A stretch of DNA of 64,000 nt. Origin: Halobacteriovorax sp. GB3 (GTDB lineage: Bacteria > Bdellovibrionota > Bacteriovoracia > Bacteriovoracales > Bacteriovoracaceae). The DNA lies in assembly GCF_028649655.1 (NCBI RefSeq), contig NZ_JAQSLN010000003.1, forward strand, positions 1,054,001-1,118,000, given 5' to 3'. This document shows, piece after piece, positions 32,768 through 33,099 of this stretch (position 1 is its first letter; the number at the start of each line of letters is the position of its first letter). The notes under the pieces were generated by a model, which saw nothing but the letters and a program-made list of their open reading frames with translations, ran no database searches and was not told the origin of the DNA. The position numbers and the translations under genes were made by a program.

Positions 32768-32775
32768 AATGGCGG

Positions 32776-33039
32776 GCGTCAGCGCCAAGCGAGCGACGAA
32801 TATTCGAATCCCGGTAACTCTCGTAGAAAACCTAAAATGACTAAAATAAATCCAAAGAAGTGGCGGGGCGTGAGGGACAAATTTGCGGTAATTTGCATCG
32901 CAAATTAATGCAAAGTTTGTGAGGAGTCCGCGCCGAAGCGTCAGCGCCAAGCGAGCGACGAATATTCGAATCCCGGTAACTCTCGTAGAAAACCTAAAAT
33001 GACTAAAATAAATCCAAAGAAGTGGCGGGGCGTGAGGGA
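32776..33039. repeat. 102-bp direct repeat (two copies, period 162) including the tRNA-Arg 3' end
   Basis: Copy 1 is 32776-32877 and copy 2 is 32938-33039, identical by eye over 102 bp. The last 17 bp of copy 2 (33023-33039) are the CCA end and acceptor/T-stem edge of the tRNA-Arg gene, so copy 1 ends in a tRNA fragment (32861-32877). The 60 bp between copies (32878-32937) are unique. A shared stretch TTCGAATCCCGG within each copy also resembles the T-arm of another tRNA on the plus strand. Confidence 0.85.
32877..32920. repeat. Imperfect palindrome in the unique spacer of the direct repeat
   Basis: AATTTGC (32890-32896) and GCAAATT (32900-32906) form a perfect stem with a 3-nt loop. Outer arms ACAAA/TTTGT and TTGC/GCAA extend it with interruptions, giving a 44-nt hairpin. 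Confidence 0.7.
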
Positions 33040-33099
33040 TTCGAACCCCCGACCAAGAGGTTCGAAGCCTCCTACTCTATCCAGCTGAGCTAACGCCCC
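33023..33099 (-). tRNA. tRNA-Arg (anticodon UCG), CCA encoded
   Basis: Seventy-seven bases on the minus strand fold as a cloverleaf. Acceptor arms GGGGCGT/ACGCCCC are fully paired. The anticodon stem GGAGG/CCTCT encloses loop CTTCGAA with anticodon TCG, and the T arm is GGGGG-TTCGAAT-CCCTC. The discriminator is G and the 3' CCA is genomically encoded. It reads CGA codons. The 3' end is duplicated nearby (see the 102-bp repeat). Confidence 0.95.

Follow-up and report, generated by a model that had tools for sequence, protein, structure and literature searches.

Two well-known arrangements resemble the tRNA-linked arrays which we report here. Behind the tyrT gene of E. coli lie the rtT repeats, tandem units which each carry the tRNA 3' end and are associated with a structured small RNA. 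Our arrays likewise consist of tandem units of similar size which lie behind a tRNA gene and contain its 3' end, but they gave no Rfam match, occur at several tRNAs and have cargo genes between units. Integron cassette arrays are anchored at one end and consist of repeated structured sites alternating with cargo genes. The present arrays share the structured repeated sites, the cargo and the single anchored end; unlike in integrons, most units here are empty and their motif does not fit the attC core, and an attC-like reading of the motif was rejected on a comparison by eye.

The nearest published parallel, as far as the excerpts of PMC3146451 extend, is provided by the Dehalococcoides ssrA islands, in which the gene 3' end recurs as downstream direct repeats, the surroundings are conserved and elements lie in tandem. 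Integrative elements which decay to cis-mobilizable remnants and then undergo accretion are described in the excerpted text of PMC5704250. With CIMEs and accreted islands at tRNA and tmRNA 3' ends, as presented in those portions of the two sources, our arrays share the 3'-end direct repeats and the tandem elements, some of which have no integration module, and the tRNA arrays do have the attL/attR direct repeats, made of the 3' end of the target gene, by which a CIME is recognized. In contrast to such islands, however, the commonest members here were gene-free units of ~95–184 bp present at several tRNAs per genome, with a motif and hairpin common across tRNAs and no integrase linked to the units. 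As far as our literature searches show, a gene-free unit with a motif common to different tRNAs is new.

The repeated tRNA-Arg 3' end

The window, which is the whole stretch of 64,000 nucleotides of Halobacteriovorax sp. GB3 DNA that was analysed, was compared with itself and the result re-checked. This confirmed a 102-nt direct repeat in the original prediction, with positions 32776–32877 100% identical to 32938–33039 at a period of 162; a perfect repeat of this length is far beyond chance. A tRNA-Arg(TCG) gene occupies 33023–33099 on the minus strand and the repeat therefore takes in 17 nt of the tRNA 3' end, TCCCTCACGCCCCGCCA including CCA, which supports the earlier view of this copy as attachment-site-like. 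Along the tRNA-Arg strand the order is tRNA with its tail (c), an 85-nt trailer, a 60-bp segment (b), the tail copy, the 85-nt trailer again and a terminator-like hairpin. The classic unit, as found at other tRNA genes as well, consists of a T-rich spacer, motif (a) GCNCTRACGYTT, an A/T-rich hairpin (b) and the local tRNA tail (c). The features of the locus are as follows.

33023–33099, minus strand: tRNA-Arg (anticodon TCG), 77 nt, encoded CCA included
33023–33039, minus strand: tail (c), first copy, the final 17 nt of tRNA-Arg
32938–33022, minus strand: trailer copy 1, 85 nt, with motif (a) GCGCTGACGC at its end (32936–32947 with the next TT)
32878–32937, minus strand: segment (b), 60 bp, an A/T-rich hairpin present only between the repeat copies
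32861–32877, minus strand: tail (c), copy 2, an exact copy of the final 17 nt of tRNA-Arg with CCA
32776–32860, minus strand: trailer copy 2, 85 nt, with motif (a) at 32776–32785; the last unit, which has no (b)
32770–32780, minus strand: GACGCCCGCCA, a possible degenerate third tail, read by eye
32770–32787, minus strand: intrinsic-terminator-like hairpin followed by TTTTATTTTT, end of the array (1 found; 0.9 expected in shuffles)

The 60-bp spacer does fold into a hairpin as had been proposed, but taken alone it is unexceptional (z of -1.0 and -1.45); spacer and 17-nt tail together form one 77-nt hairpin on the minus strand with a z of -4.3, and none of 200 shuffles folded as well. Significance had also been attached to the equal 60-bp lengths of the spacer and the remainder of the tRNA, which look like a coincidence, the units of other arrays being 95–270 bp long and unrelated to tRNA length. 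Because these arrays differ in unit length and follow no tRNA-length logic, the reading of the repeat as a pseudo-tRNA whose 5' part was swapped for a hairpin was rejected. The T-arm-like stretch TTCGAATCCCGG exists, but its interpretation as a further tRNA remnant is unsupported, since TTCGAATCCCGGTAACTCTCG was confined to the two repeat copies in the window and the 85-bp trailer had no other strong match in the genome (best other E 0.14). A search of the GB3 genome for further copies found the 162-bp unit at the tRNA-Arg locus alone. The suggestion that the region might be identical and single in all relatives does not apply, as the unit was absent from the other 128 family genomes save for short pieces, chiefly the tRNA tail.

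Tail copies and a common unit at other tRNA genes

The copying of a tRNA 3' end recurs at other tRNA genes. Copies of the gene's own 3' end were found downstream on the same strand at 6 of the 35 tRNA genes of GB3 (Arg-TCG, Glu twice, Leu-TAG, Pro-TGG and Ser-GGA), and Leu-CAA would be a seventh if contigs C6 and C4, the starts of which have a 21-bp end in common, are joined as we infer. The Pro-TGG gene is followed by three tandem units of 149, 149 and 151 bp and Ser-GGA by two of 99 and 119 bp. Relatives in the Bacteriovorax/Halobacteriovorax group also have tail-copy arrays at tRNA genes, among them two (a)(b)(c) units at tRNA-His of genome G003 and, as in the window, one unit plus one truncated unit at Leu-TAG of G083.

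Using the last 11 nt with at most one mismatch, a same-strand tail copy within 800 bp downstream was observed for 14 of 131 CCA-bearing tRNA genes in fetched loci. The same genes gave no copies upstream on the same strand, none downstream on the opposite strand and 2 upstream on the opposite strand, and when tails were swapped a mean of 1.1 and a maximum of 4 were obtained in 50 repeats. Positive loci numbered 4 of 30 for Ser-GGA (fetched by tRNA similarity alone), 2 of 32 for Arg-TCG and 5 of 29 for Pro-TGG, one of the latter being L100, which biases the 131-tRNA count because it was retrieved for its resemblance to the window unit; for all remaining Pro and Ser loci of that count the tRNA alone was used as the query. 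These low counts indicate that most relatives are without units at these tRNAs. A set of 50 tRNA genes, which were picked with some positives already known, had 19 same-strand tail copies and 1 on the opposite strand. The tails follow the local tRNA: one letter of the Ser tail is T in GB3, G001 and G096 and C in G080 and G083, and tRNA and units agree in each. A side observation concerns locus L112 (G000:C6:29942-42755), which contains two tRNA-Lys/tRNA-Glu operons on one strand at a distance of 12.6 kb; their tRNA genes are identical, and a separate tail-copy unit accompanies each operon.

Motif (a) was found 12 times in the GB3 genome, where its reversed form, used as a control, gave one match; 10 of these 12 sites are tRNA trailers or distal units of tRNA arrays. 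Near 133 tRNAs a shorter form of the motif occurred 18 times downstream on the same strand, 0 times downstream on the opposite strand, 0 times upstream on the same strand and twice upstream on the opposite strand. The anatomy of the unit is conserved, with (a)(b)(c) kept in eight Ser units from five genomes while the spacer drifts. Tail copies at Glu, Leu-TAG, G036 Arg, G100 Pro and G084 Pro have no motif (a), and tail copying is therefore wider than the (a)(b) unit. Helix (a) was paired in 72% of cells, and a hairpin with at least 5 spanning pairs was formed by the motif at 17 of 22 tRNA sites versus 33 of 48 mostly coding hits; a role for (a) as a general hairpin at tRNA sites was thus unsupported, being no better than chance hits. 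The Ser-type unit pattern had no matches in viral contigs, and among the five plasmid matches listed only the tRNA end of the query was matched.

Cargo, insertion hotspots and the favoured explanation

Cargo lies between units at several loci: three held 1.2–4.3 kb of unrelated genes between unit copies and a fourth held an integrase-bearing element between the tRNA and a unit. At GB3 tRNA-Pro the three units are followed by 4315 bp of cargo, a fourth unit and then smc, the cargo encoding an iron-dependent repressor, an FTR1 permease with cytochrome c, a cation efflux protein and a 140-aa ORF. Units U1 and U2 at this locus are identical, and U3 and U4 (147/151 identical) are closer to each other. 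Across the presumed contig join at GB3 Leu-CAA an 82-bp exact repeat was found, with ~1.2 kb between the tRNA unit and the second tail and a single 320-aa ORF without a Pfam match as cargo. The 92-bp exact repeats at G096 tRNA-Ser are 2928 bp apart and enclose a GNAT acetyltransferase, an LD-carboxypeptidase and small ORFs. The fourth locus is G083 tRNA-Ser, where the unit beyond the integrase-bearing element is flanked by tails on both sides. No recombinase gene was found inside empty units, no integrase in the three cargoes, where only the 140-aa ORF of GB3 Pro gave a PF07508 match, and no defence genes among five cargo proteins. That ORF (L189:13017-13439, plus strand) has only a partial Recombinase domain and adjoins the distal unit.

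The gene order rdgB–tRNA-Pro–smc is widespread, and the tRNA-Pro–smc interval is a variable insertion hotspot whose length was 135–4320 bp across 13 loci. In GB3 there are 327 nt from the last Pro tail to smc, within which host sequence common to relatives resumes. The tRNA-Ser tail is used by two classical tyrosine-integrase elements, the one in G083 and one in G018, where a tail copy lies 7.3 kb downstream and there is no unit.

We favour, at about an even chance of being right, an explanation in which these are arrays of attachment-like units at tRNA 3' ends which arose by tandem duplication or accretion and resemble miniature elements that carry no integrase. On this view the window contains a complete unit that is anchored at the tRNA and composed of spacer, motif (a), hairpin (b) and tRNA tail (c), together with a second, truncated copy of it; every tail copy would be an attachment-like site that matches the adjacent tRNA 3' end exactly or nearly so. 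Units may multiply when tail copies recombine or slip against each other, or when one integration follows another at the tRNA 3' end (accretion), and would be gained beside the tRNA, as the pairwise similarities of the GB3 Pro units suggest. Decay would affect the far end of the array, as in G001 Ser, G083 Leu and the Arg array of the window, and leave the tRNA intact. Cargo genes and further integrative elements could enter at the tail of the tRNA itself or at one inside the array, such that the arrays may act as landing strips in tRNA hotspots. On these grounds it is plausible that the arrays were built by recombination at the tails and that their units are non-autonomous, being served by a recombinase in trans.

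A more ambitious form of this idea, to which we give little credence, is a tRNA-anchored cassette platform in which tail-bearing units take up, keep and release small gene cassettes at numerous tRNA genes of the predatory Bacteriovoracaceae, served by one trans-acting recombinase which recognises the (a)/(b) structures and not the tRNA sequence. The observations suggest that, throughout this family of predatory bacteria, tRNA genes may be followed by small arrays of their copied 3' ends, at places which are also insertion hotspots. If this is true, the points at which these bacteria acquire new genes would have a simple interpretation, and it could be tested whether minimal gene-free units are able to subsist on integration sites that larger elements use.

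Alternative explanations and dispersed copies

Transcribed trailer repeats in the manner of E. coli tyrT/rtT, that is, tandem units ending in tRNA 3' sequence and yielding a structured small RNA processed at CCA, are a less likely but live alternative, with which several features accord. The motif had the orientation of the tRNA at every tRNA-linked GB3 site, 95% of the cells of helix (b) contained standard pairs, one of them compensatory, segments (b) and (c) of the window fold well together, and the terminator-like site at window tRNA-Arg lies after the array, not before it. The covariation is thin, however, with both sides of the helix changed in 3 cells; only tRNA reached its Rfam gathering score; and genes are inserted between units. 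In addition, a terminator-like site separates the tRNA from its tail copy at Glu, Leu-TAG and G036 Arg, which is evidence against a need for co-transcription. A scan of G084 Pro revealed no terminator-like site on the tRNA strand.

A similarly low standing is given to plain tandem duplication, in which replication slippage or unequal crossing-over would have copied the tRNA 3' end together with its trailer, with neither element nor function involved. Slippage alone could make arrays, which counts against the favoured attachment-like units, as do the lack of recombinase genes in empty units and of integrases in the three cargoes, the (a)(b)-like elements away from tRNAs, the tail copies that have no motif (a) and the many Pro, Ser and Arg loci of relatives at which no unit was found. 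The perfect 102-bp repeat, the identity of GB3 Pro U1 and U2 and the small size of the arrays are all as such a process would leave them. It does not explain, however, why a motif is common to different tRNAs, why an extra segment (b) lies between the copies, why (a)(b)(c) is kept against a drifting spacer or why arrays recur at the same tRNAs in several genera.

Less probable again are REP-like palindromic repeats which settled behind tRNA genes and were possibly spread by a single-copy Y1 (IS200-like/RAYT-like) protein. Among the motif matches listed in fetched loci 72 were inspected, of which 7 had a tRNA on their own strand within 600 nt; the majority of the other inspected sites looked coding and due to chance, but the listed sites included 11 intergenic-looking copies of a similar two-hairpin (a)(b) element in G003, G008 and G086. 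Nine of 10 such dispersed copies fold well; the copies at tRNAs did not surpass chance hits in this respect. Direct repeats flanked 2 of the 11 (44 nt at L293, 22 nt at another) and none of the other 9. The search for a shared recombinase covered PF01797 (IS200-like, Y1-type) in 8 genomes, and all 8 encode one or two such proteins of about 165–220 aa (L309–L318). Full motif (a) was near 0 of 10 PF01797 loci and the core CTRACGY was absent from 9 of 10. With a Y1 protein in every genome searched but no full motif near its genes, a REP-like origin is possible only. As with the REP/RAYT systems covered in the excerpts of PMC3733652, there are putative intergenic hairpins at gene 3' ends and a Y1-family protein in the genome; unlike them, our unit is longer and two-part, its tail is copied from the adjacent tRNA, and it had neither a demonstrable REP tag nor its motif at the Y1 gene. 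REPs in those excerpts are 20–40 bp with a GTAG or CGTC tag, and no tie to tRNA tails is made in that text.

The original prediction had offered an integration scar or a small mobile hairpin element, and of these a small repeated hairpin element is indeed involved, while a lone scar is untenable as the architecture recurs at other tRNA genes. The scar of one excised or decayed island at tRNA-Arg is thus very improbable; a copy of the tRNA 3' end is what att sites carry, but the 102-bp identity runs 85 bp past the tRNA and tail copies occur at six other GB3 tRNA genes. Assembly error, also raised at the outset, can be dismissed for practical purposes, for although one contig break falls inside a similar unit (Leu-CAA), both window copies have unique flanks and a unique spacer and the architecture is present in independent assemblies, including G003 with a chromosome contig of 3.44 Mb.

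Some further observations were made on individual loci. At L293 (G008:C3:51100-53400, near 1151) 44 nt from the 3' end of a protein gene are repeated exactly beyond an (a)(b) hairpin element, which is the architecture found at the tRNA genes. Dispersed intergenic two-hairpin repeats, often starting with GATACTCCGCG, are found at L290, L294, L296 and L298 of G008, and several of this group abut the 3' end of an opposite-strand gene. At L074 (G000:C1:573351-576423) an inverted copy of part of the tRNA-Ala(GGC) 3' end, TGGTGGACC...AGCGGGATCGAA, lies ~70 nt downstream, and the tRNA end could therefore pair with it.
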